From Actinomycetes bacterium (GTDB lineage Bacteria > Actinomycetota > Actinomycetes > Streptosporangiales > Streptosporangiaceae), in contig JAJYUU010000042.1 in NCBI GenBank assembly GCA_021792405.1, positions 1 to 35,152 on the forward strand: a stretch of DNA of 35,152 nt, given 5' to 3'. A model generated the notes under the pieces. The model worked only from the letters and a program-made list of their open reading frames with translations. It was not told where the DNA came from and did no database searches. Within the stretch, counting starts at the first letter, position 1. Each line of letters starts with the position of its first letter. Position numbers and translations under genes: made by a program. Shown piece by piece: positions 5,957 through 35,047 of this stretch.

Positions 5957-5986
5957 AATTTAGACTAAGTCAACAGTTTAAAACAA
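5957..5986 (-). promoter_or_regulatory. Ferredoxin promoter with overlapping inverted repeat
   Basis: On the minus strand TTGTTT (5981-5986) and TAAATT (5957-5962) are spaced by 18 nt. The spacer is filled by an imperfect inverted repeat, TTTAGACT-N8-AGTTTAAA on the plus strand (5959-5982, arms matching at 7 of 8). This AT-rich block stands out in the GC-rich surroundings. A dimeric regulator bound here would sit between the -35 and -10 boxes. The SufR-like protein encoded nearby is a candidate, by inference only. Confidence 0.5.
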
Positions 5987-5996
5987 GAGGCTATCT

Positions 5997-6035
5997 GCGG
6001 CCCAGGTCTTCGCCGTCCAGGTTGACCTGGGCCGC
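5997..6035. other. 12-bp perfect hairpin in a divergent intergenic region
   Basis: GCGGCCCAGGTC (5997-6008) and GACCTGGGCCGC (6024-6035) pair perfectly around a 15-nt loop. A further wobble and a GC pair extend the stem outside. It lies between the ferredoxin promoter and the rightward methyltransferase gene. It could terminate stray transcription, act as a protein site, or belong to an untranslated RNA. The rest of 5931-6238 holds the two promoters and no convincing gene. Confidence 0.55.
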
Positions 6036-6202
6036 GGAGCACGAGGGGCAAGGGAGACTGACAGGTGGACAGGCTGAAGGGGCATCAGCTCGATCTTCGG
6101 TACCAGCGGCGGGTTCGGTACCTCGCCGGCCTATCACGCCGATGGGACGGCTGGGCCATCGACGGCGGCTACACGGCTCGCTGAGATGCCCACCTGCCCT
6201 GG

Positions 6203-6231
6203 AGTTTCCAGAACGGCGCCCAACGTACGAT
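6203..6231 (+). promoter_or_regulatory. Predicted leaderless promoter of the methyltransferase gene
   Basis: AGTTTC (6203-6208) and TACGAT (6226-6231) are 17 nt apart. The GTG start at 6239 begins 8 nt after the -10 hexamer, and no Shine-Dalgarno sequence precedes it. The -35 hexamer and spacing are the same as in the SufR-like promoter at 4652-4680. Confidence 0.45.
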
Positions 6232-6238
6232 TCCGGCT

Positions 6239-7075
6239 GTGGCAGACAGCGCCTTCCTGGAGCAGAGCTATGCCGCCTACTCCCAGGTCGAGAATGAGTT
6301 CCAGCGGGTCATGGACGAGAGCCTGCATCCGCGCCGGCCGGGCATGCTTGACGACATGGTCGCCGGGCTCGAGTTGCCGGCGGGCGCTGCGGCGCTGGAT
6401 GTCGGCTGCGGTGAGGGCGGCCACGCGATCGAGCTGGCCAGGCGGTTCGGGCTGCGGGTCCTCGGCGTTGATCCGGTCCGCAGCCAGGTCGAGATCGCAC
6501 GGCAGCACCTGGCTGATGCGGCCAGGAACCAGCCCGGCCTGAGCGAGATGGTGCGCTTCGCCCTGGGTAGAGCCGAAGACCTGCCCGCCGGAAGCGACTC
6601 GATGAACCTGGTGTGGTGCCGGGATGTCCTGGTGCATTCTGATGACTCCGGCAGCGCGTACCGCGAGTTCGCGCGCGTGCTGCGGCCGGGCGGCTGGGCG
6701 CTGGTCTACCAGATGTTCACCACATCGCGGCTGGAGCCAGCGGAGGCGGCGCTGCTTCTGCCCGTTCTGGGCTGCGCCGCGGCGAGCATGCGCCCAGCGG
6801 CCACTGAGGCCGCGATCGAGGCCGCGGGGCTGCGCATTGCCCAGCGCATCGTTCTCGACAGCGAGTGGGGAGAATACGCGCAAGAATCCTCGGGAGCGGG
6901 CGGCCGCCAGCTGCTGCACGCCGCGCGGTTGCTGCGCGATCCCCGCCGGTACGTACGCCGCTTCGGCCAGGCGAACTATGACATCGCGCTAGCCGACTGC
7001 CTGTGGCACATCTACCGCATGATCGGCAAACTCAGCGCCCGCGTCTATCTGCTGTCCCCGGAAGATGCCGGGTAA
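6239..7075 (+). CDS. Class I SAM-dependent methyltransferase
   Basis: The 278-residue protein has the Rossmann-type methyltransferase core. Motif I is ALDVGCGEGGHAIELA (about residues 51-66), the acidic end of strand 2 is VLGVDP, and motif III/post-III is LRPGGWALVYQ. The segment FALGRAEDLPAGSDSMNLVW matches the UbiE/COQ5-like subgroup, which methylates small molecules. The C-terminal 100 residues, rich in Arg and aromatic residues, are probably the substrate cap and give no clear substrate. The GTG start appears leaderless. The gene stands alone between divergent and convergent neighbours. Confidence 0.8.
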   Translation: MADSAFLEQSYAAYSQVENEFQRVMDESLHPRRPGMLDDMVAGLELPAGAAALDVGCGEGGHAIELARRFGLRVLGVDPVRSQVEIARQHLADAARNQPGLSEMVRFALGRAEDLPAGSDSMNLVWCRDVLVHSDDSGSAYREFARVLRPGGWALVYQMFTTSRLEPAEAALLLPVLGCAAASMRPAATEAAIEAAGLRIAQRIVLDSEWGEYAQESSGAGGRQLLHAARLLRDPRRYVRRFGQANYDIALADCLWHIYRMIGKLSARVYLLSPEDAG

Positions 7076-15542: not shown

Positions 15543-16778
15543 CTACCTCGCCGGCGGCAAGGCAATCAAGCCAGGCGACCCAGCGGCTGCCAGCGCGCTG
15601 TCCTGCGCCCCGGCGGGTGCAGCCGTCGCGAGGCCGCGGGCCAGATCGTCATCCGGCGAGACAGGCGAAGGCGTCACCTCCAGAAGGAGCAGAGCAACGT
15701 CATCGTCCAGCTTGCGCCTGGCGTGCGCCATCAGCCGGCTGAGCAACTGGTCCGCCGCTGCCTGCAGGTCCGGCAGGCGCAGCGTGTCGACCCAGTCTTC
15801 CAGCCGGAAGTATCGCCCTGCCCGGTCACGTGCCTCGAGCAGGCCATCGGTGTAGAAGACCAGCCGGTCGCCGGCGCTGACCGTGAACGTCGATGCCTGG
15901 ATGTCGGGATGCAGGCCGAGCGGCGTCGCGAACACCGAGGGCGTCAGCGGCCGCAGGTCACCGTCCGCGGTCAGGCGCAGCGGCGGCGGATGCCCGCACA
16001 CCACCAGCTGAAGCCAGCCGTGCGGGTCGAGTTCGGCAAAGACTGCGGTAACGAAGTCTTCCTCGCCGGCCGCCCGGCTGACTGACCCGTCGACAACGCG
16101 CGCGATCTCCGGCAGTGAGAGGCCAGGCTGCGCGCACGCATCGCGGAAGCTCGTCATCGCCACGCTCGCCAGTCGCACCGCTGGCAGGCCCTTCCCGCGC
16201 GTATCGCCGATGAGCCAGCGCGGGTGTCCCGGACCGGGAACGACTTCGAGCAGGTCACCGCCAACCCGTGCCTCGGGCGATGCCGAGAGGTACCGCGATG
16301 CCAGCCGGCCAGCGGTCACTGTCGCGGGGACTTCGGGCAATATGGCGCTTTGCGCGACTCGCGCGACAGCACGGACCTGGCTGATACGGCGCTTGGCCGC
16401 GGCCCGGAGCGCCGAGTTCACGACCGCGAACGCGGCGAGCAGCAACAGCACGCTCAGGTGCGAGGCAAGCATCGCGAGCCGGCCTGGCTGGCCGACGGCA
16501 AGTCCGATGCCGAGCACGACCGCCCAGCCCGCGAGCAGCGCGGTGCCGCGAGGAAACAGCACGAGCGAAGCCAGCAGCGGGCCGACCGCCAGCCACGCGG
16601 CCGGCATGAGGTCCGGCCGGATCAGGTACCCGGCCGCCGCGACCATCGTGATCGCCACGACCAGCACGAGCCCGACCACGCGCCGGGCGCGCTCGGTAGG
16701 CCACTGTGCGGACGCCGACGGATCCGGCGCACTCCTCTGGCCAGCACTCACAGACCTGACCCGGACTCTTGCGCTCAT
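15543..16778 (-). CDS. Membrane-anchored SpoIIE-type PP2C serine phosphatase
   Basis: The 411-residue protein has a short cytosolic N-terminus, three to four membrane helices (about residues 34-125) and a cytosolic SpoIIE/PP2C phosphatase domain from about 150. Catalytic acidic residues appear in ARVGGDLLEV, IGDTRGKGLPA, FYTDGLLEARD and the closing LDDDVALLLLEV, so it should be active. Such enzymes dephosphorylate STAS-domain anti-anti-sigma proteins in partner-switching stress pathways. ATG 16778 has GGAAGG about 9 nt upstream; a GTG at 16805 is a less likely start. No sensor domain other than the membrane part is visible. It follows the LysR gene on the same strand after 114 nt. Confidence 0.88.
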   Translation of the reverse strand: MSARVRVRSVSAGQRSAPDPSASAQWPTERARRVVGLVLVVAITMVAAAGYLIRPDLMPAAWLAVGPLLASLVLFPRGTALLAGWAVVLGIGLAVGQPGRLAMLASHLSVLLLLAAFAVVNSALRAAAKRRISQVRAVARVAQSAILPEVPATVTAGRLASRYLSASPEARVGGDLLEVVPGPGHPRWLIGDTRGKGLPAVRLASVAMTSFRDACAQPGLSLPEIARVVDGSVSRAAGEEDFVTAVFAELDPHGWLQLVVCGHPPPLRLTADGDLRPLTPSVFATPLGLHPDIQASTFTVSAGDRLVFYTDGLLEARDRAGRYFRLEDWVDTLRLPDLQAAADQLLSRLMAHARRKLDDDVALLLLEVTPSPVSPDDDLARGLATAAPAGAQDSALAAAGSPGLIALPPAR

Positions 16779-16892
16779 CAGAGGCCGCCTTCCGGTTCTT
16801 GTCACTGGCTCCAGCCGGTTACACCTAACACTATTGTCCCGGGTCTTCAGTGAACGCTGACCGCAAGCTCCAAATCGGCCCAGTGTGGCCGG

Positions 16893-18371: not shown

Positions 18372-18629
18372 CTAACCCCGCCGGGACAGCGCGTAGCCGA
18401 TGGCGATGGCTGCGGCGACGGGCCAGTCCACGGCCCCGACTACCCCGGCGATGCCGAGGCCGGCCAGGAAGCCGGCGCTCTTGTACTCGACATGGCCGAC
18501 GATGGGCAGGTTGATGCCCGGTTCTTCGCGCGGCTGCTGGCGTGGCTGGCGGTCCTGCTCACCGTTGTGCCCAGCCCGGTCGGCCGAGGATCCGCGGCGG
18601 GTGCTCGCCTGGGTCTTCGCGTCCATCAT
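18372..18629 (-). CDS. Small membrane protein with a VDWPVA motif (paralogue 2)
   Basis: The 85-residue product has a charged, Gln/Arg-rich N-terminus (residues 1-38). One or two close hydrophobic segments follow, with FLAGLGIAGVVGAVDWPVA and IAIGYALSRRG at the end. The VDWPVA box is at 67-72. It aligns over about 45 residues with the downstream gene, so the pair arose by tandem duplication. Its ATG at 18629 (or 18626) is preceded by a TGTATACC box at about 18653-18660, a possible -10 element. It diverges from the giant P-type ATPase. The small size and membrane character would fit a pump accessory subunit, but that is speculation. Confidence 0.65.
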   Translation of the reverse strand: MMDAKTQASTRRGSSADRAGHNGEQDRQPRQQPREEPGINLPIVGHVEYKSAGFLAGLGIAGVVGAVDWPVAAAIAIGYALSRRG

Positions 18630-18768
18630 GACAGGCTGCCCGGCTGCGGCCCGGTATACACCATCCCCCCCGGGTGGTTGCCGCGCGCCGCCGGTGGCCG
18701 CTCGCCTGGGCCGCCCTCACCCGGCGAGGGTGATGCCCGGCGGGCCGGCCTCGGCCCACCATATCGGG

Positions 18769-21700
18769 ATGCGCACAGCTGACTGCGGGTCGGCGCCGGC
18801 TGCGCCGGATTCCGACGGGCCGCCTGACCGGGACGGGCCTGACCGGGACGGGCAATCCGGGCCCGGTCGAATTGTCACGGGCACGCCCGGACTGGCACGG
18901 CTCGCCGGGTTCGTCGCGGCCGCCGGGCGGACCGTCCGTTCGCTGCAGTCTCCGCGCGTGCTGTTCCGCTCGGGCGACCGCATTCACATCAGGGTCAGCG
19001 GTGTGGCTCACGGCGCCGGCAGCGAACTGGCCGAGGCGGTGGAAACCGCTCTCGAACGCCACGATGCGGTCCGCTGGGCCGCCGTGAATGCGGCGCTCGG
19101 TGCAGTTGTGGTGCAATGCGACAAAGAGGTGCCAGAAGCCGAGCTTGCCGGGATCGTCGAGCGGCTCGAGGACAGCATGCAGGTTCCTGGTGCGGGCGGC
19201 GACGGACAGCCGGGGCCGATGAACCGGGTTCCCGCCACGGTGGCGCCGCTGGTGGCCACCGCTGCAGGCCTGGCGTTCGCGGGCGCGGGTCGCGCGTTCC
19301 GGGTCGCGCGGCTTCCGGCCGAGCTAGGCTTGCTTTTCCAGTTCGTCGACGCCCAGCCACGGCTGCGCGGCGCGCTCGCCGGAGCTGTCGGCACGGACCG
19401 CGCGGACCTGCTGCTGGCGGTCGGTAATTCGGCGGCACAGACGGCGGCACAGGGCATCAGCGGGCTGACGGTCGACGCCGGACAGCGCGTGCTGCAGCTT
19501 GCCGAGGCCGTGCTCGAGCGGAGCTCGTGGGCCCGGGCTGAGCCGAAACTGTGCATCTCCCGTGCGCGCGCTGCGGCTCGGCCGGTCACCCCGGAACGGC
19601 CGCAGGCAGTGCCGCCCGGAAACGCTGAGCACTTCAGCGACGCGATGGGGGTGTCCGCGGCTGCCGCCTTCGGCGGGGTGCTGGGCATGTCCGGAAGCGC
19701 CCGGCGCGCGGGCGGGGTGGCCGCGGCCACGATCCCGAAGGCGGCGCGAGTTGGCCGGGAGAGCTTTGCCGCAGCGCTCGGGTGCCTGCTGGCCCGCCGC
19801 GGCGTAGTAGTCACCGATCATCGTGCGCTGCGCCTGCTGGATCGTGTTGACGCCATCGTTATCGACGAAGATGTCCTCTTGACGGGTGCGCTGCAGGTCG
19901 GGGAGGTGGTCGGGGTCGGCAGCGCGGATAGTGCGAGCCTCGGCGCGGTGGCGCAGGCGCTGTTCGACCCGGGCAGGGTGGCTGGCATCGTCACCGGTGG
20001 CGGCTTCGCGATGGGCCCGCTTGACGCCCTCGGCGTGAGCTCGAGAACAGCGTCGCAGCTTGCCGCCCGGCTCACTGACGGCGCCGCGGTAACGGTGCTG
20101 GGACTGGCCGAGGCAGGCCGGCTGCGCGCGGTCATCGGAGTTGCCGCTGAGCGGGCGGGAGCGGCGGACATGCTGCTGGCCGCCGCGCAGCGCTCCGGCG
20201 TCAGGTACTTGCTGGCGGCGTCGGCCACCCCGGCGGTGACCCTGCCCGATCCGTCGCTGGTCGTGCCGGGTGGCAGGCGCCTTGTCGCGACTGTTCGCGG
20301 GCTGCAGGCAACGGGGGCGGTCGTTCTGCTGGTGTCAGATCGGCGCCGCGCCCTGGCCGCGGCGGACGTTGGTGTCGGGATTGTCTCGGCCGACGGCCGG
20401 CCTGCCTGGGGCGCCCATATTCTGGCAGTCTCGGGACTGGCCTCGGCCGCGCTCACTGTCGAGGCGGTAAAAGCGGGCAGCGCGGCGTCCCGCCGGGCGA
20501 TGAACCTGTCCCTGGGCGGCACGGCGCTTGGCGGCGCACTGGCGGCTGGCGGCGAACCGGGAACGGCCGCACGGCGCAGCTTGCTGGCGGTGAACGGGGC
20601 CGCGGCGGCCGCGCTCGCGGCCAGTGCCTGGTCGGTATCGGAGCTGGCCCGGCTGCCGGCCAGCGCCCCGCCACCGCCGCCGCCCTGGCATGCCATGCCG
20701 CCCGAGGTCGCGCTGGCCAAGTTGCGCAGCCGGCCGGGCGGCCTGACGACCAGGGAGGTCCGCGGGCGCTGGCGGCCTGATGAGCGCACGCCCGCGCGGC
20801 TGTCGCTGCCCCGTGCCTTCCTTGGCGAGCTGGCTAACCCGCTGACGCCCATACTCGGCGGCGGGGCAGTCCTGTCCGCCTCGATCGGCGCGGTCGCCGA
20901 TGCCATCGTGGTGTCGGCAGTGGCCGGGATATCGGCTCTCATCGGCGGCGCTCAGCGCGTCTATACCGAGCAGTCGATGCGCCGCCTGCTGACGGAGTCC
21001 GCGGTCACCGCGCGAGTGCTCCGGGATGGCACCGAGCGCATCATCCCGGCAGTCGGCCTGGTCGGTGGCGATGTCGTTGTGCTGGCCGGAGGCGACGTGG
21101 TTCCCGCCGACTGCCGGCTGCTGGATGCTAGGTCGCTGCAGGCCGACGAGTCATCGCTGACCGGCGAATCGGCGCCGGTCGAGAAGACCGCGGCGCCGGT
21201 GTTCGCGCCGGCCGTGGCCGACCGACGGTCGATGCTGTACGAAGGCACGACGGTGGCTGCCGGATACGCCACGGCGGTGGTGGTCGCGACGGGCAGCGGC
21301 ACGGAGCTCGGCAAGAGCCTGAAGGCGCTAGCGCAGGCTGCGCCGCCGACCGGCGTGGAGTCGAGGCTGAGCCAGATCACCCGCACGACGCTGCCGCTCG
21401 CCCTCGGCTCGGCGGCCGCCGTGGTGGCAGCCGGGCTGATCCGCGGGCATCCGGCCAGGGACACGATTGGCGCGGCAGTCGGGCTGGCCGTCGCCTCGGT
21501 CCCCGAGGGCCTGCCGTTCCTGGTGACTGCCGCTCAGCTGGCATCGGCTCGCCGTCTGGCCAGGCACGCCACCCTGGTGCGCAGCCCGCGGACCATCGAG
21601 GCGCTCGGCCGGACCAACGTGCTGTGCTTCGACAAGACAGGAACGCTCACGCAAGGCCGGATGGCCGTCGCGGCGGTCTGCGACGGGACGACGACGCGCC

Positions 21701-23331
21701 CGGCCGGCGCGCTGCCCGCCGCGCACCGTGACGTCCTCGCGGCAGCGCTGCGAGCGACTCCCAGGGCCAGGTCCCGGCGCGGCCACGAGCATGTGACCGA
21801 CCAGGCCGTCATCGATGGCGCAGCCGCGCAGGGCCTCCGACGCCGCGACGGCTACGCCGGCTGGCGGCAGGTGGACTCGCTGCCCTTCGAGCCCAGCCGG
21901 GCCTTTCACGCCACGCTTGCCGAGACGAGCCAGCGTCCTGTCCTGTCGGTGAAGGGAGCGCCGGAGGCGATACTGCCGCACTGCGCGAGATGGCGCGGAG
22001 GCGATCTCAGTCCGGCTGATCGCAAGCGGATCGACAGGGCGCTCGGCAAGCTCGCTCAGCAGGGTTACCGGGTGCTGGCGGTGGCCGAGAATCAGGTCAG
22101 CCCAGACGGTCAGCAATCGGTCACGGTCGACGACATGACTTTCGCCGGCCTGGTTGGCTTCGGCGATCCGGTTCGGGCCACGGCTGGCGCATCGGTCAGC
22201 GAGCTCCGCGCCGCCGGCGTCGACGTCGTCATGATCACCGGCGATCACCCCGCCACCGCTACGGCGATCGCCACCGAGCTGGGCGTGCTGAACGGGGGAG
22301 GGGTAGTAACCGGTGCGGAGATCGACCGGCTCGATGACGCCGCGCTGGCCGCCGCGCTGGCCGGCGCGACTGTCATCGCCCGCTGCACGCCCGAGCAGAA
22401 GGTCCGCGTCGTCCGCGGCTTCCAGCAAGCCGGCCGAGTCGTCGCGATGACGGGTGACGGCGCCAACGACGCCGCGGCCATCCGGCTGGCTGATGTCGGA
22501 ATCGCGCTCGGGAAGCGCGGCACGCCGGCCGCCCGCGCGGCTGCAGACCTGGTGGTCACCGACGACCGGCTGGAAACGATCATCGCTGCCGTGATCGAAG
22601 GCCGGGCCATGTGGCGCTCGGTCCGCGAGGCGATCGGCATCCTGGTCGGCGGCAACATCGGCGAGATCGGCTACACGCTCTTCGGCACGCTGATGGCCGG
22701 CACTTCACCGTTGTCGGCGCGGCAGCTCCTGCTCGTCAACTTGCTTACCGACCTTCTTCCGGCGGCGGCGGTCGCGCTGCGCACGCCGCAGCCGGGGGCG
22801 GCGCAGAGCCTGCTCGCCGAGGGGCCCGACACTTCACTCGGATCGGCGCTCACCCGGGAGATCGCCGTGCGAGCCGCGGCCACCGGAGCGGCGGCCAGCG
22901 TCGCGTGGATCGTTGCCCGGATGACCGGCTCGCCCGCCCGAGCGCGAACGGTCGGACTGGCGACCGTGGTCAGCGCCGAGCTTGGCCAGACCCTGCTGGT
23001 GGGTGGCCGCAGCCCGGCCGTCGCCGCCGCGAGCCTGGCTAGCCTGGGAGTGCTGGTGGGCGTGGTGCAGACCCCCGGTGTCAGCCAGTTCTTCGGCAGC
23101 ACCCCGATCGGCCCGGTCGGCTGGTCGATTGCCGCCACCGCGGCCGGCGCGGCATCTGCTGGCTCGGTGCTGCTCCCGAAGTGCGGCCGGCTGCTGACGC
23201 CGGCCATCGACTCGCTGCTGCCGATGTCGGGCCGGGTGCTCGCCCCAGCCCTCGGGCCGCTTCCTCCGGCAGTCCGATCGCTCGCAGGCGCCTTGACCGG
23301 CTTGGCCGACAGGTCAGCTGCGGCCGAGTAG
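18769..23331 (+). CDS. Giant CtpH/CtpI-like P-type cation ATPase with a degenerate N-terminal half
   Basis: The 1520-residue protein contains a complete P2-like pump in its C-terminal half. This half has LTGES (T798), PEGLP in TM4, DKTGTLT (D955), SVKGAPE, ITGDHPATA and TGDGAND (D1230), with NLLTDLLPA late in the membrane region. Upstream is an HMA-like fold without a CxxC (about residues 60-140) and a second ATPase-like module. There the phosphorylation site is replaced by VIDEDVLLTG (D366), and a damaged hinge-like AAADVGVGI segment is present. The overall plan and size resemble mycobacterial CtpH and CtpI. ATG 18769 is chosen because the frame upstream overlaps the divergent gene. Its 3' end overlaps gvpK by 18 nt, tail to tail. 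The ion is unknown. Confidence 0.82.
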   Translation: MRTADCGSAPAAPDSDGPPDRDGPDRDGQSGPGRIVTGTPGLARLAGFVAAAGRTVRSLQSPRVLFRSGDRIHIRVSGVAHGAGSELAEAVETALERHDAVRWAAVNAALGAVVVQCDKEVPEAELAGIVERLEDSMQVPGAGGDGQPGPMNRVPATVAPLVATAAGLAFAGAGRAFRVARLPAELGLLFQFVDAQPRLRGALAGAVGTDRADLLLAVGNSAAQTAAQGISGLTVDAGQRVLQLAEAVLERSSWARAEPKLCISRARAAARPVTPERPQAVPPGNAEHFSDAMGVSAAAAFGGVLGMSGSARRAGGVAAATIPKAARVGRESFAAALGCLLARRGVVVTDHRALRLLDRVDAIVIDEDVLLTGALQVGEVVGVGSADSASLGAVAQALFDPGRVAGIVTGGGFAMGPLDALGVSSRTASQLAARLTDGAAVTVLGLAEAGRLRAVIGVAAERAGAADMLLAAAQRSGVRYLLAASATPAVTLPDPSLVVPGGRRLVATVRGLQATGAVVLLVSDRRRALAAADVGVGIVSADGRPAWGAHILAVSGLASAALTVEAVKAGSAASRRAMNLSLGGTALGGALAAGGEPGTAARRSLLAVNGAAAAALAASAWSVSELARLPASAPPPPPPWHAMPPEVALAKLRSRPGGLTTREVRGRWRPDERTPARLSLPRAFLGELANPLTPILGGGAVLSASIGAVADAIVVSAVAGISALIGGAQRVYTEQSMRRLLTESAVTARVLRDGTERIIPAVGLVGGDVVVLAGGDVVPADCRLLDARSLQADESSLTGESAPVEKTAAPVFAPAVADRRSMLYEGTTVAAGYATAVVVATGSGTELGKSLKALAQAAPPTGVESRLSQITRTTLPLALGSAAAVVAAGLIRGHPARDTIGAAVGLAVASVPEGLPFLVTAAQLASARRLARHATLVRSPRTIEALGRTNVLCFDKTGTLTQGRMAVAAVCDGTTTRPAGALPAAHRDVLAAALRATPRARSRRGHEHVTDQAVIDGAAAQGLRRRDGYAGWRQVDSLPFEPSRAFHATLAETSQRPVLSVKGAPEAILPHCARWRGGDLSPADRKRIDRALGKLAQQGYRVLAVAENQVSPDGQQSVTVDDMTFAGLVGFGDPVRATAGASVSELRAAGVDVVMITGDHPATATAIATELGVLNGGGVVTGAEIDRLDDAALAAALAGATVIARCTPEQKVRVVRGFQQAGRVVAMTGDGANDAAAIRLADVGIALGKRGTPAARAAADLVVTDDRLETIIAAVIEGRAMWRSVREAIGILVGGNIGEIGYTLFGTLMAGTSPLSARQLLLVNLLTDLLPAAAVALRTPQPGAAQSLLAEGPDTSLGSALTREIAVRAAATGAAASVAWIVARMTGSPARARTVGLATVVSAELGQTLLVGGRSPAVAAASLASLGVLVGVVQTPGVSQFFGSTPIGPVGWSIAATAAGAASAGSVLLPKCGRLLTPAIDSLLPMSGRVLAPALGPLPPAVRSLAGALTGLADRSAAAE

Positions 23332-27049: not shown

Positions 27050-28207
27050 CTATCTCGCCCGGGCCTTAACCGGCTCGCGCCCACGCGACGACCTGCCACT
27101 GCCGCCGCCACCGCGCCGCGCTTCCCGCTGCTCCCCGTCGCCCTCGTCATGGTCCTCGTCCTCGTAGTCGCGGTCGTAATCCCGGTCTTCGCCTTCGCCT
27201 TCGCGTTCGTCGTAGTCTTCTTCTTCTTCTTCCTCCTCCTCCTCCTCCTCCTCCTCGCCTCCGCGTGCCTCGTCCTCGTAGTCCTCGTCCTCGTAGTCCT
27301 CGGCCTCGTCATAGTCCTCGTAGGCCCGGTCCTCGTCGCGTCGGCCGGCGGATTCCCCGGCCCTGTCGCGGGACTTCCGGCCGTCGTCTTCCTGCTCTCC
27401 GCTTTCGCCGTCGCTGACTACTTCGCCGTCGCGTATCTCGCCACGCCAGCCGGTGACTTCGTCCGGATTGGTCAGCACCTGCGTCATCACATGCCGACGG
27501 AAATGCTTCAGCTCCAGGCGGACGCGCCGGCCCTGGGCTCGCCAGAGATTGCCGATGTTCTCGATCACGCCCCCTGGGTGGTACTCGAGAACGACCAGGA
27601 TCCGGGTAAATTCCGGATCGCCGATCGCGTGGAACGTGACGGTGCCGTCGACGTGGCCCTTGTCGCCCTCGGACTTCCAGACGATCCGGTTGTCGGGGAT
27701 CTGGTCCATGATCGTGGAACGCCAGCTCCGGTGTGACCAGAAGATCTGCGCCTTCCAGCTGAGCTTGGCATCCTCTTCCTGGTTGACTGTCTCGACTTTC
27801 TTCATGAAGGTCGGGAAGTCCTGGAACTGCGTCCAGACGTTGTAGGTCAATGTGAGCGGTGCGCCTACGTCGATCTGCTCGACGATGTTGGTCACCTTGA
27901 GGCCCTTGCCGCCGCCTTTGCCGCCGCCGCCGCCAAGAGCCTTGCCGAGCTTGCCCATGACGCCCGAGGCGCCTGCCTTGGCCAGGCCGCGCAGCGGCTT
28001 GCCCTGGAGGAGGTCGGGTGCACCTTCCTTAAGCGCCTTCGCGGCCGGACCGCCGTTCTCCGCGTAGTCAGTGAGCCGCTCCGTCGCGCGCTGTGTCAGT
28101 GCCCCGAGGAATGACCCGAGTTCTCCCTTCAGCCGGTCGGTTGGCAGTTCGGCGATAAAGCTCTTCAGCATGCCACCACGCTCGGCCTGCGCTGTCTGCT
28201 CATTCAT
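27050..28207 (-). CDS. SRPBCC-domain protein with polyacidic tail in the gas vesicle operon
   Basis: The 385-residue protein has a helical N-terminal region (1-80) and a Gly/Lys-rich linker containing [11 protein letters not shown]. An SRPBCC (START-like, polyketide cyclase/dehydrase) domain follows at about residues 103-245, with [20 protein letters not shown] and [11 protein letters not shown]. The remaining 130 residues are extremely acidic and low in complexity, including a run of 14 glutamates and many DYE/YED units. Streptomyces gas vesicle clusters contain unknown gvpY/gvpZ genes, one of which I recall as SRPBCC-like. The equivalence is tentative. The ATG overlaps the upstream gene by 4 nt. 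A role in surface or membrane attachment is speculation. Confidence 0.75.
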
Positions 28208-28944
28208 TCACTGTCACCCCCGCTCCGGGACGGTGCGGACGGCGGACGGGATCGTCCGCCGCCGCCTTGCCGCTCGCTGCCTGCATCATCACGATCGCCA
28301 TCGCGCTGCGATGGCTGGCCAGCGCGAGCATGCGCGGCCTTCTCTTCCGCGCTGCGCGACTGCCGGCTGGCAGGTGCGCCGTCCGATTCAGCGCGCGATG
28401 CCGGACGGCGTGGCGCCGGGACGCGATCGCCATCGCGTTCGGCTGGGCGGCGTCTCGAGCTCGATGCTGCGGGACGCCGGTCTTCGTCGCGCTGCCGCTC
28501 TCCCTCGTCGCGCTGACCTGCCCGTTCGTCGCGCTGACCTGCCCGTTCGTCGCGCTGACCTGCCCGTTCGTCGCGCTGCCGCTCTCCCTCGTCGCGCTCG
28601 GGCATGCCTGCGGCCGATCCCTCGCCGTCGGCGCCTCCGGCGCGCATTGCGTCAGTCCGGTCCCGCAGGCCGTCGCTGAGCGCGTTGATCTTGCCGCTCA
28701 CGACAGCAAGGGCAGCTGCCTTGCCGGCCTCGACGAGCCGGCCTTTCATCTCCTCGGTCAGCTGCGTGAACTCAGGGGACGAGCTAAGGACCTTTGCCCC
28801 TTGCTGGAACAGGCCGCCTGCCGCGCCGCCGAGGCGTCCGCGCCGAGCTAGCGCTGCTACCGCTAGCGCCCACTTCATCTTGTGGAATCGGCCCAGTGCG
28901 TAGCCCGCCGCGACGGCAAGGCCCAGGCGGGCTCCGCTATTCAT
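28204..28944 (-). CDS. First gene of the gas vesicle operon, repeat-rich unknown protein
   Basis: The 246-residue protein starts NSGARLGLAVAAGYALGR, then a short hydrophobic and basic helix (WALAVAALARRGRLGG) that could touch a membrane or the vesicle. A helical segment from about 50-100 (EEMKGRLVEAGKAAALAVVS) follows, then a long disordered tail rich in Arg, Asp and Glu. The tail includes heptads RDEGERQ and RDERAGQ in an A-B-B-B-A order. ATG 28944 has GGGGGA 7 nt upstream and is chosen over 28977. It resembles the unknown leading genes (gvpY-like) of Streptomyces gas vesicle clusters, but this is uncertain. Confidence 0.65.
   Translation of the reverse strand: MNSGARLGLAVAAGYALGRFHKMKWALAVAALARRGRLGGAAGGLFQQGAKVLSSSPEFTQLTEEMKGRLVEAGKAAALAVVSGKINALSDGLRDRTDAMRAGGADGEGSAAGMPERDEGERQRDERAGQRDERAGQRDERAGQRDEGERQRDEDRRPAASSSRRRPAERDGDRVPAPRRPASRAESDGAPASRQSRSAEEKAAHARAGQPSQRDGDRDDAGSERQGGGGRSRPPSAPSRSGGDSE
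28490..28594 (-). repeat. Five 21-bp tandem units in A-B-B-B-A order, coding
   Basis: Units start at 28490, 28511, 28532, 28553 and 28574. The three central ones are identical, reading CGCTGACCTGCCCGTTCGTC plus G on the plus strand. The two outer ones are identical to each other (CGCTGCCGCTCTCCCTCGTC plus G). They encode the heptads RDERAGQ (B) and RDEGERQ (A) in the disordered tail of the first gas vesicle operon gene. Confidence 0.85.
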
Positions 28945-29040
28945 CGCATCCCCCAGAACGCGAGGGCACGTTTGCATGAGAACCAGCCGCTGGTGGCACT
29001 CCGCCGGCCCCCGACTACGTTGCGGCGCGCCACCAGCGGG

Positions 29041-29065
29041 CTACCCGATTACCTCCGCCGCAAAC
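29041..29065 (-). promoter_or_regulatory. Sigma-B/F-type promoter of the gas vesicle operon
   Basis: On the minus strand GTTT (29062-29065), a 15-nt spacer and GGGTAG (29041-29046) closely match GTTT-N14-16-GGGTA(T/C), the promoter of actinobacterial SigB/SigF stress sigma factors. Only the last -10 base deviates. The leader to the ATG at 28944 would be about 90 nt. The rest of the 298-nt gap (28945-29242) shows no gene. Confidence 0.6.
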
Positions 29066-29242
29066 AAGACTCAACAGCCTCGGTTACCACGACCGCTACG
29101 CAAGAACCACCGTCGGCCAGGGGCGAACCGCCCTGCAGGCATGTCCGGATGGGTTCAGGGGGATTCGAAGCCGCGCTGCATGTACTGGTGCCAGCCGGAC
29201 AGCCTGGGCGACTGCCGCCTCGGCGCTGCGGTCCGCCCCGGC

Positions 29243-32200
29243 CTACGTGGTCGGCCGGAGCCATCTCTCGATGCAGCCGAGTAGTTCCTCGATGTCCACA
29301 GGTTTGGTGACGTAGTCGGTAGCTCCGGCGGCGATGCTCTTGTCCCGGTCTCCCTGCATGGCCCGCGCCGTGACGGCGATGACGGGCAGCTGCGCGAATC
29401 GTGCCATCCGCCGGATCGCCCGGATGGTCTCGTGCCCGTCCAGTTGGGGCATCATGATGTCCATCAGCACCACGTCAAAGTGCCCGGCGCTGAGTGCTTC
29501 GACAGCCTGCCGGCCGTCAGCCGCTCGGGCGACCGCCATCCCGTACAGTTCCAGCACATCGGTGAGCACGAACGCATTGCGCGGGTCGTCATCGACGATC
29601 AGCGCCCTGCGTCCCTTCAGTTCGTCGTGCCGCAGGGCCGGGCGGAGCGCGCCGGATGAGGCGGGAGCTGAGGCGGCGGGCCTGGCGTACAACTGAGTGG
29701 CAGCGGAAATGGCGCCGTCGTGCCCGCCCGTTTCCGTCGTGGTGGCTGTTACCAGCCCGTGCGCACCAGACGGCTCAGCCGCCAGCGCCTCGGCGCCTGC
29801 CTCATGCATGGGCAGGTACAGCGTGAAAGTGCTCCCGGCGCCCTGCTCGCTGTCGACGGTGATCTCGCCGCCCAGCTGAGCTGCGACTTCCCGGCAGATA
29901 GCCAGGCCGAGGCCAGTGCCACCGTACCGGCGGCTCGTGGTGCCATCCCCCTGGTGGAACGCGCCAAAGATGGCGCCGATGTTGTCGCTGGCGATACCGA
30001 TGCCCGTGTCAGTGACGGCGAACGCCACGGCCGCCCTGCCGCCGGGCACTCGGCGGTGAGCGGCCTCGATCCTTACCCCGACGCGGCCGTTCTCGGTGAA
30101 CTTCACTGCGTTCGAGAGCAAGTTGTGCAGGATCTGCCGAAGCCGGTGCTTGTCCGTGATCAGCTCGGCCGGCGCGCCGGGAGCCACTTCGATGGTGAAG
30201 TGCAGGCCCTTCTCGGCAGTGAGCGGGCGGAAGACAGAGTTGAGTTCCTCGGCCAGGCCGCCCAGCGGGAAGCGCTCGGGGCGGACATCCATCTTCCCGG
30301 CCTCAACCTTGGACAGATCGAGGATGTCGTTGATGAGCTGCAGGAGGTCGGAGCCGGACATGTGGATGACGTTGGCGTACTCGACCTGCTTCGGCGTGAG
30401 GTTCTGGTCGGGGTTCTGAGCCAGCAGCCGGGCGAGCACGAGCAAGCTATTGAGCGGAGTGCGCAGCTCATGGGACATGTTCGCCAGGAACTGAGACTTG
30501 TACCGGGAGGCGAGGTCGAGCTGCCGCGCCCGTTCCTCGATCTCCTGCCGCGCTTGTTCGATCTGAGCGTTCTTCTGCTCGATGTCGCGGTTCTGCCGTG
30601 CCAGCTGCTCTGCCTTGTCCTCAAGTTCGGCATTCGACCGCTGCAGCTCGTCCTGGCGGGCTTGCAGTTCGCCCGAGCGCGATTGCAGCTCCGCGGCCAG
30701 CCGCTGTGACTCGGCGAGCAGGGCATCGGTGCGGGCGTTGGCAATGATGGTGTTGACGTTCACCCCGATGATTTCCATCAGCTGCTCGAGGAAGTCACGG
30801 TGAATCTGGGTGAAGCGGGCAAACGAGCCGGCTTCGATCACGCCGAGGGCCTGTCCCTCGAACGCAATCGGCATGATGATGATGCTTGCCGGGGCCGCCT
30901 CGCCGAGCCCTGAGGAAATCCGGACGTAGCCCGCGGGGACCTCGTCGAGCACGATCGGCCTGCCGGTGCGTGCCACCTGGCCGATCAGTGACTGACCGAG
31001 CCGGAACTGGCTGGGGGCGTCCTTGTCGGCGCGCAGTCCGTAGCCTGCGATGAGCCGCATCCGGGTCTCGCCGGCGCCGTGGTCTGCCAGGAAGAACGTC
31101 CCGTGCTGCGCGCCGATCAGCGGGATCAGCTCATCCATGATGAGCTCCGCCACCGCTGGCAGATCCCGGTGACCCTGCATCAGCCCGGCAATGCGGGCCA
31201 GGTTGGTCTGCAGCCAGTCCTGCTCCTGGTTCGCCCTGGTCGTCTCGCGCAGCGATTCAACCATCGCGTTGATGTTGTCCTTCAGCTCAGCTACCTCGCC
31301 CTGAGCCTCGACCGAGATGGACCTGGTCAGGTCGCCTCTGGCCACAGCGCTGGTGACCTCGGCGATCGCCCGGACCTGGCGGGTCAGGTTGCCGGCTAGC
31401 TCGTTCACGTTCTCGGTGAGCCACTTCCAGGTGCCCGAAACGCCCTGGACTTCAGCCTGGCCCCCGAGCCGCCCCTCGCTGCCGACCTCGCGTGCCACCC
31501 TGGTGACCTCAGCGGCGAAGGACGACAACTGGTCCACCATCGTGTTGATGGTCGTCTTCAGCTCCAGGATCTCGCCGCGTGCGTCCACGTCGATCTTCTT
31601 CGACAGATCGCCCTGGGCGACCGCGGTAGTGACCTGCGCAATGTTGCGGACCTGGCTGGTGAGGTTGTTGGCCATCGAGTTGACGTTGTCGGTCAGGTCC
31701 TTCCAGGTGCCCGCGACATTCGGCACGTTAGCCTGGCCGCCGAGTTGTCCCTCGGTGCCGACCTCACGAGCGACCCTGGTTACCTCGCCGGCGAATGCGC
31801 TGAGCGTGTCGACCATGCCGTTGATGGTGCCGGCGAGTGCCGCAACCTCGCCTTTCGCCTCGACGTGGATGCGCTGGCTCAGGTCGCCGCGGGCCACAGC
31901 GCTGGCTACCTGAGCGATCGAACGGACCTGCTCGGTAAGATTCGAGGCCATCACGTTGACGTTGTCGGTCAGGTCCTTCCAGGTGCCCGACGCGCCCTGG
32001 ACGCTGGCCTGGCCGCCCAGTTTCCCCTGCGTACCGACGTCACGAGCGACCCTGGTGACCTCGCCGGAGAAAGCAGACAACTGGTCGACCATGGTGTTGA
32101 TGGTCTCTTTCAGTTCCTGGATCTCACCGCGGGCGTCCACTCGTATCTTCTGGCTCAGGTCCCCCTTCGCGACGGCGGTGGTAACGGTGGCGATGGCGCG

Positions 32201-32800
32201 GACCTGGTCGGTCAGGTTCGTGGCCATGACGTTGACCGACTCAGTGAGGTCCCGCCAGGTGCCGGACACGTCCAGAACGTCGGCCTGGCCGCCGAGCCTG
32301 CCTTCGGTGCCAACCTCACGCGCCATCCGGGTGACCTCGCCGGCGAACGAGGACAGCTGATCCACCATGGTGTTAAGAGTCTGCTTAAGCTCCAGCAATT
32401 CGCCCTTGGCGTTGACCGTGATCTTCTGCGTCAGGTCGCCCTGGGCGACAGCAGAAGCCACCTGGGCGATGTCCCGTACCTGACCGGTCAGGTTGCCCGC
32501 CATGGCGTTCACCGACTCGGTGAGATCCTTCCAGGTGCCGGTCACGCCGGGCAGGTGAGCCTGCCCGCCGAGCTTTCCGTCGCTCCCGACCTCGCGAGCT
32601 ACCCTGGTAACTTCCGATGTGAATAGCGCCAGCTGGTCATTCATGCCGTTGAAGACGGCAGCGATCTCGTTCATCAGCGCGTCGGGGCTGCCCGGCAGCC
32701 TGGTGCCGAAATCGCCGTCACGCACTGCCTTCAGCCCGTCTAGCAGCTGCTGCAAGCGTGAGTCAGCGGGGCCGTGTCCTGGCTGACCTGCTGATTCCAT
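29243..32800 (-). CDS. Soluble poly-HAMP / GAF hybrid histidine kinase with receiver domain
   Basis: This 1185-residue kinase has no membrane helix. Residues 50-540 are a chain of HAMP modules, five of them in near-identical units of 92 residues with the GTWKDLT and AVAQGDL signatures. A GAF domain (about 550-700), a long coiled coil (705-765) and a HisKA domain with [14 protein letters not shown] (H777) follow. A HATPase domain with VTDTGIGI and GGTGLGLAI comes next, and a C-terminal receiver domain with phospho-acceptor D1114 ([13 protein letters not shown]) and VTKPVD closes the protein. It resembles fungal group III osmosensing kinases (Nik1/Os-1) in plan. ATG 32800 has AGAGG upstream. 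No partner regulator is adjacent, so output is through another protein. Confidence 0.9.
31290..32660 (-). repeat. Five 276-bp direct repeats encoding HAMP units
   Basis: The coding DNA repeats with an exact period of 276 bp. The CTTCCAG-type segment that encodes GTWK occurs at 31424, 31700, 31976, 32252 and 32528. Outer boundaries are approximate. This is internal gene duplication, not a mobile element, and could recombine to change the HAMP number. Confidence 0.85.
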
Positions 32801-32906
32801 CCCGACCACCTCTGCTGGGTGCCGACCGCGGCGCACATCCGAGAAGACGCCGAATTGCCGGATGTAACGGGAGCCGATATGACGCTTCGATCATCCCATC
32901 TGAGCT

Positions 32907-32980: not shown

Positions 32981-35047
32981 GTGACCGTGACAAGTTCAGA
33001 CGGCGGGCTTGCCAGGCTCACTGAGCTAGTGGAGTGGCAGCGGCAGGAGATCAGCCGCATGCGCTCGGGCGCTGCGTCGCGCGCCGTCACCGACGTCGCC
33101 ATCGGCATCCTGATGGAGCGCCTGTCCTGCTCTGCTGCCGAGGCGCAGACGCAGCTCGATCGCCTTTCCGCGGAAGCGCACGTCACCCAGGCCGACATGG
33201 CGAGCGAGATCGCCGGGGTCCGGCCGCCTGACCCTGGCGCAGGCGGCCGGCCCGGCCCGGACTGGCCCGTCCCGGACTGGCCCGGCCTGGCCTGGGCGGC
33301 CGCCCGCATTGCACCAGACGGGGGCGGCGTCGCCCGCGCGATACTCGACGAGGCGCTGTCCGGTGAAGGTGCGTCGGCCGTGGCGATCTGGCTGTTCGCT
33401 CCGGATGGCGGGCTCGAGCTGGCCGGCGAGGCGGGATTCGGATCGCATGAGGCGGGCCGCTGGCGGCGGATCCCGCCGGGCTTCGATATCCCGGCTGCGC
33501 GCGCAGCCCGCGATGACATCCAGACCTGGTGGCCGCAAGGTCCTCCGACCGGCACTGAGATGCCGCTGATCGGCGGAAATGCCGGGTCTGCACGTGCGGT
33601 CCTGCCGCTGCGCAAACTCGGCGCGAGCATCGGCGCACTCGAGGTCTGCTGGCCGGCCGGCGCTGATGGGATGTCCGCGCGCGCTCGGGAGCGGCTTGCG
33701 TCGATTGCTGACGTCTGCGCGCAGGCGCTGACCGCAGGCGGCGGAAGCGGCATGGCATCGGACTACTCGGCGGCCTGGCTCTCTGCGCTCCTTGACGCGC
33801 TGCACGATTCGGCCCTGATCGCCCGGCCGTGCCGTGACGATGGCGGCCAGCCGTTCGCGCTGGTGGTCGACTGGGTCAGCGAGCGCTTCGCCGATCCGCT
33901 CGGGCGGCCGCGGGCCGACCTGGCCGGCTGCAGGCTGACCGAGATCTATCCGGAGGCGGCGCGACCCGGTGGCTTGTCTGACCGCGCCCTGCAGGTGCTG
34001 GCTACCGGGCAGCCGCAGCGCCTGGACAGCGTGGTCCTCACCACGTCGGCCGGCGGATTCACGGTACAGGCTGACATAGCGCCGCTGTTCGACGGCCTCG
34101 TCATCGCATGGCGGGAGACCAGCGAGGCTCACCGGCTGACGGCGCTGCTCGAGCAGGCCCAGTGGCTCGGGCGCATCGGAAGCTGGCATGAGGATCTCGT
34201 CTCCGGCGAGGTGCACTGGACCGACCACACGTTCACGGTGCTGGGGCGCTCGCCAGGCAACCCGGTGCGGCTGATGAATCTGGACGAGCACGTGCTCGCG
34301 GACGACAAGCGGGCTCTGGCCGCATTCCGGGAAAGGGTGCTCAGCGGGCGGGAGGGAGCAACTGCCGCGTTCAGGATCATCCGCGACGATGGCACTATCC
34401 GGCAGCTCCGGGCGTTCGGCCAGCCAGTCGTGAGCTCGACGGGGGAGCTGGTCGGCGTTCGCGGAGCATATCAGGATGTAACGTCACAGTTTTCCACTCA
34501 AGTGGCTTTCGATGCCACCCGTGAGCAGCTCATCAGCGCCGAGGAACGTGCCAGCGAGCAGCACCGGCTCGCAGTGCGGCTGCAGGAGGCCATCACCCCT
34601 CGCGCCTCCCGCCTGGTCGAGGACGCTGGTCTCGAGGTGGCCGCGCGGTACCGGTCTGCCGGACCGGCCAGGCTGGTCAGTGGCGACTGGTACGACGCAG
34701 TCGGCTTGCCGGACAAGCGCGTCCTGGTAGCAGTCGGCGACGTCGCCGGACACGGGCTGAATGCCGTTACTGGCATGGTGGCGCTGCGAAACTACCTTCG
34801 CGGCCTGGCCATCACCGGCGCCGGTCCAGCTACCCTGCTCGGCTGGCTCAACACCGCCGCCTGTCATCTGTCCGACGGAATCTTCGCTACGGTCGTGTGC
34901 GCGATCTACGATCCGGACGACCGGACGCTGCGCTGGGCACAAGCAGGTCACCTGCCGCCTTTGCTGGTTCGCGACGGTGCTGCACGGGCGCTGCGGCCGC
35001 CCGCAGGACTACTGCTCGGCGCCGTTAAGGGCTCTCCGCTGAATTAG
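32981..35047 (+). CDS. ANTAR-GAF-PAS-SpoIIE phosphatase, C-terminus cut by an insertion sequence
   Basis: The 688-residue protein starts with an ANTAR-like helical segment (about residues 34-80; VAIGILMERLSCSAAEAQ). A GAF domain (about 100-255), two PAS domains (about 260-390 and 395-510), a coiled segment and a PP2C/SpoIIE domain from about 540 follow. SGDWYDAVGL, VGDVAGHGL and WAQAGHLPPLLV are present. The domain then stops at GLLLGAV followed by KGSPLN and a stop. The usual final 70-80 residues, including the TDGL and DD-x-T metal-binding Asp motifs, are missing. The last six codons appear to come from an ISAzo13-type element. The protein is probably inactive as a phosphatase. GTG 32981 has GGGAAG upstream. 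Confidence 0.8.
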   Translation: MTVTSSDGGLARLTELVEWQRQEISRMRSGAASRAVTDVAIGILMERLSCSAAEAQTQLDRLSAEAHVTQADMASEIAGVRPPDPGAGGRPGPDWPVPDWPGLAWAAARIAPDGGGVARAILDEALSGEGASAVAIWLFAPDGGLELAGEAGFGSHEAGRWRRIPPGFDIPAARAARDDIQTWWPQGPPTGTEMPLIGGNAGSARAVLPLRKLGASIGALEVCWPAGADGMSARARERLASIADVCAQALTAGGGSGMASDYSAAWLSALLDALHDSALIARPCRDDGGQPFALVVDWVSERFADPLGRPRADLAGCRLTEIYPEAARPGGLSDRALQVLATGQPQRLDSVVLTTSAGGFTVQADIAPLFDGLVIAWRETSEAHRLTALLEQAQWLGRIGSWHEDLVSGEVHWTDHTFTVLGRSPGNPVRLMNLDEHVLADDKRALAAFRERVLSGREGATAAFRIIRDDGTIRQLRAFGQPVVSSTGELVGVRGAYQDVTSQFSTQVAFDATREQLISAEERASEQHRLAVRLQEAITPRASRLVEDAGLEVAARYRSAGPARLVSGDWYDAVGLPDKRVLVAVGDVAGHGLNAVTGMVALRNYLRGLAITGAGPATLLGWLNTAACHLSDGIFATVVCAIYDPDDRTLRWAQAGHLPPLLVRDGAARALRPPAGLLLGAVKGSPLN

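Follow-up and report, generated by a model that had tools for sequence, protein, structure and literature searches.

Our results indicate that the gas vesicle (gvp) operon of this Streptosporangiaceae genome is very probably transcribed from a promoter that is read by RNA polymerase with a group 3 stress sigma factor of the SigB/SigF family. The whole stretch of DNA that was analyzed, 35,152 nucleotides, is referred to here as the window, and L086 is the only congeneric genome found to carry gvp genes (the sister). As judged from sequence comparison, the motif alone is modest evidence, and its conservation in related operons is decisive. This strong comparative support is what is new; stress-sigma control of gvp genes has already been reported in Streptomyces.

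The probable promoter element and the gvp operon

The minus strand of the window reads CTT-GTTT-GCGGCGGAGGTAATC-GGGTAG-CCC, and the whole element, from 29065 to 29041, has a spacer of 15 nt between GTTT and GGGTAG. It has the form of a SigB/SigF-type promoter, with a GTTT-like -35 element, a GGGTA-like -10 element, and 14 to 16 nt between GTTT and GGG. The initial annotation had placed it about 97 nt before the first start codon of the gvp operon and facing it, which was confirmed: the element lies on the same strand, is oriented toward the operon, and is separated from ATG 28944 by 96 nt. The window has no other GTTT-N13-17-GGGTA (shuffles predict 0.06). No sigma-70-like promoter or terminator was found near the element, including between the kinase gene upstream and the operon.

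29062..29065, minus strand: -35 element GTTT, kept in relatives
29041..29046, minus strand: -10 element GGGTAG, 15 nt from GTTT; GGGTA or GGGCA at exactly N15 in relatives
29033..29035, minus strand: predicted transcription start, 6 to 8 nt past GGGTAG, by analogy with sigma-B-type promoters

The operon downstream is complete and runs on one strand from 28944 to 23314, with gvpA, gvpF/L, gvpG, gvpO, and gvpK all present. It is the only gvp locus found in the genome, whose three gvpA-family genes all sit there.

28204..28944, minus strand: first operon gene, uncharacterized, 246 aa; a homolog opens the operon in relatives
27050..28207, minus strand: SRPBCC (Polyketide_cyc) protein, Pfam PF03364
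26622..27047, minus strand: gvpA-type structural protein, PF00741, NF006872
25789..26625, minus strand: gvpF/L, PF06386
25538..25801, minus strand: gvpG, PF05120
25117..25578, minus strand: gvpO, PF05800
24706..25098, minus strand: gvpA-family protein (J/S/M type), PF00741
23897..24709, minus strand: gvpL/F, PF06386
23667..23894, minus strand: third gvpA-family protein, PF00741
23314..23670, minus strand: gvpK, last operon gene, PF05121

ATG 28944 is preceded by a possible ribosome-binding site (GGGGGAT), and it is a likelier start than the in-frame ATG at 28977 because the sister has ACG at the latter position. The first operon gene contains imprecise QRDERAG-type repeats (28480-28620), whose length differs between the two congeneric genomes and where local identity to the congener falls to about 61 to 63%. 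A very large P-type cation ATPase gene (1643 aa, 18400-23331) lies on the opposite strand directly past the operon.

Proposed mechanism and comparison with known systems

In the mechanism that we propose, RNA polymerase with a SigB/SigF-family sigma factor would read the site and begin transcription about 6 to 8 nt past GGGTAG, and one message would run through gvpK. An anti-sigma kinase of the RsbW type would presumably sequester the sigma factor until stress, possibly osmotic stress, leads to dephosphorylation of an RsbV-type antagonist and thereby frees it, so that the gas vesicle genes would be switched on within that stress response.

Both boxes and the N15 spacing of the element match SigF promoters of Mycobacterium smegmatis, whose consensus is GTTT-N14-19-GGGTA (PMC4694148). 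The SigF regulon of that organism is a different one, and the passages considered name no gvp genes (PMC4694148). GGGTAG and GGGCA are both among the -10 elements of mapped promoters of the SigB homologs of Streptomyces coelicolor (PMC8346170). A close counterpart is the S. coelicolor gvp operon (SCO6496-6508): its promoter is reported to be regulated by SigB (PMC5733086), and activation of the genes by salt is reported to depend on SigB (PMC6629963, citing Lee et al. 2005). Given these reports, a link between gvp genes and stress is supported but is not new. Gene order differs: Streptomyces-type loci have gvpO as their first gvp gene, and in the window the 246-aa protein and SRPBCC genes lead the operon.

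A sigma-B-type promoter might instead serve development or stationary phase rather than an osmotic or general stress response. This is a variant of the explanation that we favor, with which its probability overlaps, and we regard it as possible but rather unlikely. The promoters recognized by the different SigB homologs of S. coelicolor are largely shared, and differentiation is among the roles of these factors (PMC8346170), but the gvp genes of that organism are reported to be salt induced through SigB (PMC6629963).

Conservation of the element in related gvp operons

A search for GvpO in 120 related genomes gave a match in 39, and the DNA upstream of gvpO was used for comparison; eight named loci were added from a separate search. 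The named matches of that search, together with the kinship labels of the genomes compared, suggest that the genome of the window belongs to the Nonomuraea lineage. The set used to examine conservation consisted of 21 operons outside the genus that open with the same first gene, and the motif was searched within 300 nt of that gene. With first-gene starts that were our own choice from tblastn and with a -10 motif that was extended to GGGCA only after this variant had been seen in relatives, GTTT-N15-GGG[T/C]A was found in 14 of the 21 operons (dinucleotide shuffles, 1000 sets: mean, 0.05; maximum, 2). Every other spacing from 8 to 24 occurred in at most one operon, and the antisense strand of the 21 operons had none at N15. 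With GGGTA alone, the count was 8 of 33 upstream regions, a set that includes the window's own and Streptomyces-type regions, against 0.003 expected. Near matches such as GATT-N15-GGGCA, or with N14 or N16 spacing, were present in six of the other seven operons (L046, L096, L101, L115, L116, and L121), leaving L107 as the only one of the 21 without a site or a near match. In the sister, the stretch from -35 to -10 is identical at 25 of 25 positions, against only 82 to 87% for the intergenic DNA just upstream.

Conservation of the exact spacing in relatives (14 of 21 operons against 0.05 expected) argues that the element is not a product of chance. One exact spacing across the family also suggests that expression of the gvp genes is under selection and tied to a stress response. 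Functional gas vesicles are not reported in actinobacteria according to PMC6629963, yet the operons persist.

The Streptomyces-type operons, in which gvpO is first, mostly lack the strict motif, although SigB control is reported in Streptomyces. GTTT-N15-GGG[T/C]A was missing before most of them, the exception being L118 (GTTT-N15-GGGCA), and a relaxed motif searched in 450 nt was found in 3 of 15, not beyond the 1.7 expected by chance.

Occurrence of the motif in the genome

In the 5.39-Mb genome, GTTT-N13-17-GGGTA has 26 matches and the reversed control has 12; only 4 of the 26 have the N15 form. GTTT-N14-16-GGGCA occurs 37 times against 15 for the control. As the strict pattern is only about twofold over the control and shows no clear genome-wide peak at N15, no large regulon is visible with it. 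The strict motif did not serve to define a genome-wide regulon, since the matches are few, many are intragenic, and C202, one of the four with N15, is probably a palindromic operator of the CsoR-like kind. GGGGTAT palindromes were also observed at L127:7722 and L127:10231, in front of an LmbE-like gene and close to a gene that is probably CsoR-like; these are probably metal-sensor operators that mimic a sigma-B -10 element.

The twofold excess would also be compatible with a chance match at the gvp locus. The operon would then depend on another promoter (housekeeping or ECF) within the 300-nt gap, or on transcripts that read through from the kinase gene, which lies upstream on the same strand with no terminator-like site found in between. 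We consider this very unlikely, given the exact N15 spacing in the relatives, the lack of any sigma-70-like site found, and the full conservation of the element in the sister even though about 1.5 kb separates the kinase gene from the promoter there.

Predicted leader and inverted repeat

The predicted transcript would begin within an inverted repeat that starts 1 nt past the -10 element, the predicted start lying in its left arm.

28945..29034, minus strand: predicted 5' leader
28987..29039, minus strand: inverted repeat, arms 29022-29039 and 28987-29004, with a perfect 11-bp core (CCGCTGGTGGC/GCCACCAGCGG)

A core of 11 bp was reached in only 1 of 300 shuffles, and the repeat is a single exact copy in the genome. 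Past the -10 element, 93 of 99 aligned columns are identical to the sister, where the core is 13 bp because a G-T opposition has become G-C through a single change. The repeat was not found in the other relatives and is specific to the genus. The folding energy of the leader was not unusual (z of 0.20 and -0.69), so the case for a hairpin comes only from the inverted repeat; an Rfam scan of the leader gave no match above the gathering scores. The repeat may form a 5' hairpin that protects the message, or it may be a local operator.

A further explanation, which we also consider very unlikely, is that the element itself is the operator of a repressor or activator, possibly joined to the inverted repeat (28987-29039), and not a sigma site: the repeat is adjacent to the -10 element and kept in the sister, and GGGTA-containing palindromes at another locus of the genome form a probable CsoR-like operator, but relatives keep GTTT-N15-GGG[T/C]A without the repeat, and the shared element is not palindromic and agrees with sigma-B/F promoters from the literature in its spacing and in each of its two boxes.

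Sigma and anti-sigma genes in the genome

A SigB/SigF-type promoter would require a matching sigma factor, and two sigma loci (C51 and C66) score above the NCBIfam SigBFG cut-off (TIGR02980). The C51 sigma gene comes after a weak RsbW-like gene. GTTT-N14-GGGCAC lies about 46 nt before the start of the C66 sigma gene, which suggests that this sigma factor is self-regulated. The genome also encodes, at C76, a paralog (56% identical) of an RsbW-like protein found at the gvp locus of the sister; the best homolog of that protein in a same-class genome (G093) is encoded directly before a SigB-like sigma gene. The proposal of the initial annotation that the element is a stress-sigma promoter is upheld by its sequence, position, and conservation at exact spacing, by the two SigB/F/G sigma genes, and by the published SigB dependence in S. 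coelicolor; further observations are that the genome has anti-sigma genes and that the sister has an RsbV/RsbW-like pair at the locus.

Neighboring regulators and probable loss of an RsbV/RsbW-like pair

Three regulatory genes lie near the operon in the window, and all are also present in the sister.

29243..32836, minus strand: hybrid kinase with at least five HAMP domains, GAF, HisKA, HATPase, and receiver (domain search), 99% identical in the sister
33059..35047, plus strand: ANTAR-PAS-SpoIIE phosphatase, divergent from the kinase
15543..16805, minus strand: second SpoIIE phosphatase, about 6.5 kb past gvpK

The initial annotation took the poly-HAMP kinase and SpoIIE phosphatases as fitting a stress role. 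The genes are real and are shared with the sister, but the association does not extend further: among relatives outside the genus, no convincing conservation of kinase, SpoIIE, RsbV, or RsbW genes beside gvp was found, the single case being L105, where a weak match to RsbW lies about 3 kb away from gvp. The arrangement resembles the OsaA/OsaC osmotic system of S. coelicolor, in which a large cytosolic poly-HAMP hybrid kinase is found beside a SigB-tuning regulator (PMC9739842, PMC10117811). This likeness is one of description and does not imply orthology; no OsaB-like gene was identified, the neighbor in the window is the ANTAR-PAS-SpoIIE gene, and the sister adds separate RsbV- and RsbW-like genes.

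In the sister, an RsbW-like HATPase_c_2 gene (5981-6421) lies directly before the gvp promoter, and an RsbV-like STAS gene lies on the other strand between the kinase and the promoter, both within L086:5324-6421. This RsbV/RsbW-type pair counts in favor of the argument from stress-related neighbors. An intact partner-switching pair at the gvp locus was found in the sister only. In the window, about 1.25 kb is missing between the kinase and the promoter relative to the sister, and a remnant marks the position.

29152..29198, minus strand: scar, frameshifted 3' remnant of an rsbW-like gene, from alignment to the sister; deletion junction near 29194-29198

The remnant covers the final ~47 bp of the gene and is thrown out of frame by an additional deletion of 10 nt. 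Homologs of this RsbW align through residues 140 to 142, inside the remnant, and a deletion in the window is therefore likelier than an insertion in the sister. The window thus appears to have lost the pair by a deletion of about 1.25 kb, though the junction could also be an assembly error. This raises the tentative possibility that the gvp operon of the genus once had a linked control unit, made up of the kinase, SpoIIE, an RsbV-like protein, and an RsbW-like protein, that fed into a SigB-type promoter with a genus-specific 5' palindrome, and that the species represented by the window deleted RsbV and RsbW and kept the promoter. Its gvp genes might then answer to a different anti-sigma factor or have escaped restraint in part. 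As only one of the two close genomes has the anti-sigma pair next to the promoter, they provide a natural experiment on how gvp control works.

Groups of small genes whose products look like Asp23/alkaline-shock proteins were observed on the opposite strand, upstream of and divergent to gvp, in two relatives (L101:1270-3868 and L112:1514-4061), a possible further association of gvp operons with stress genes.
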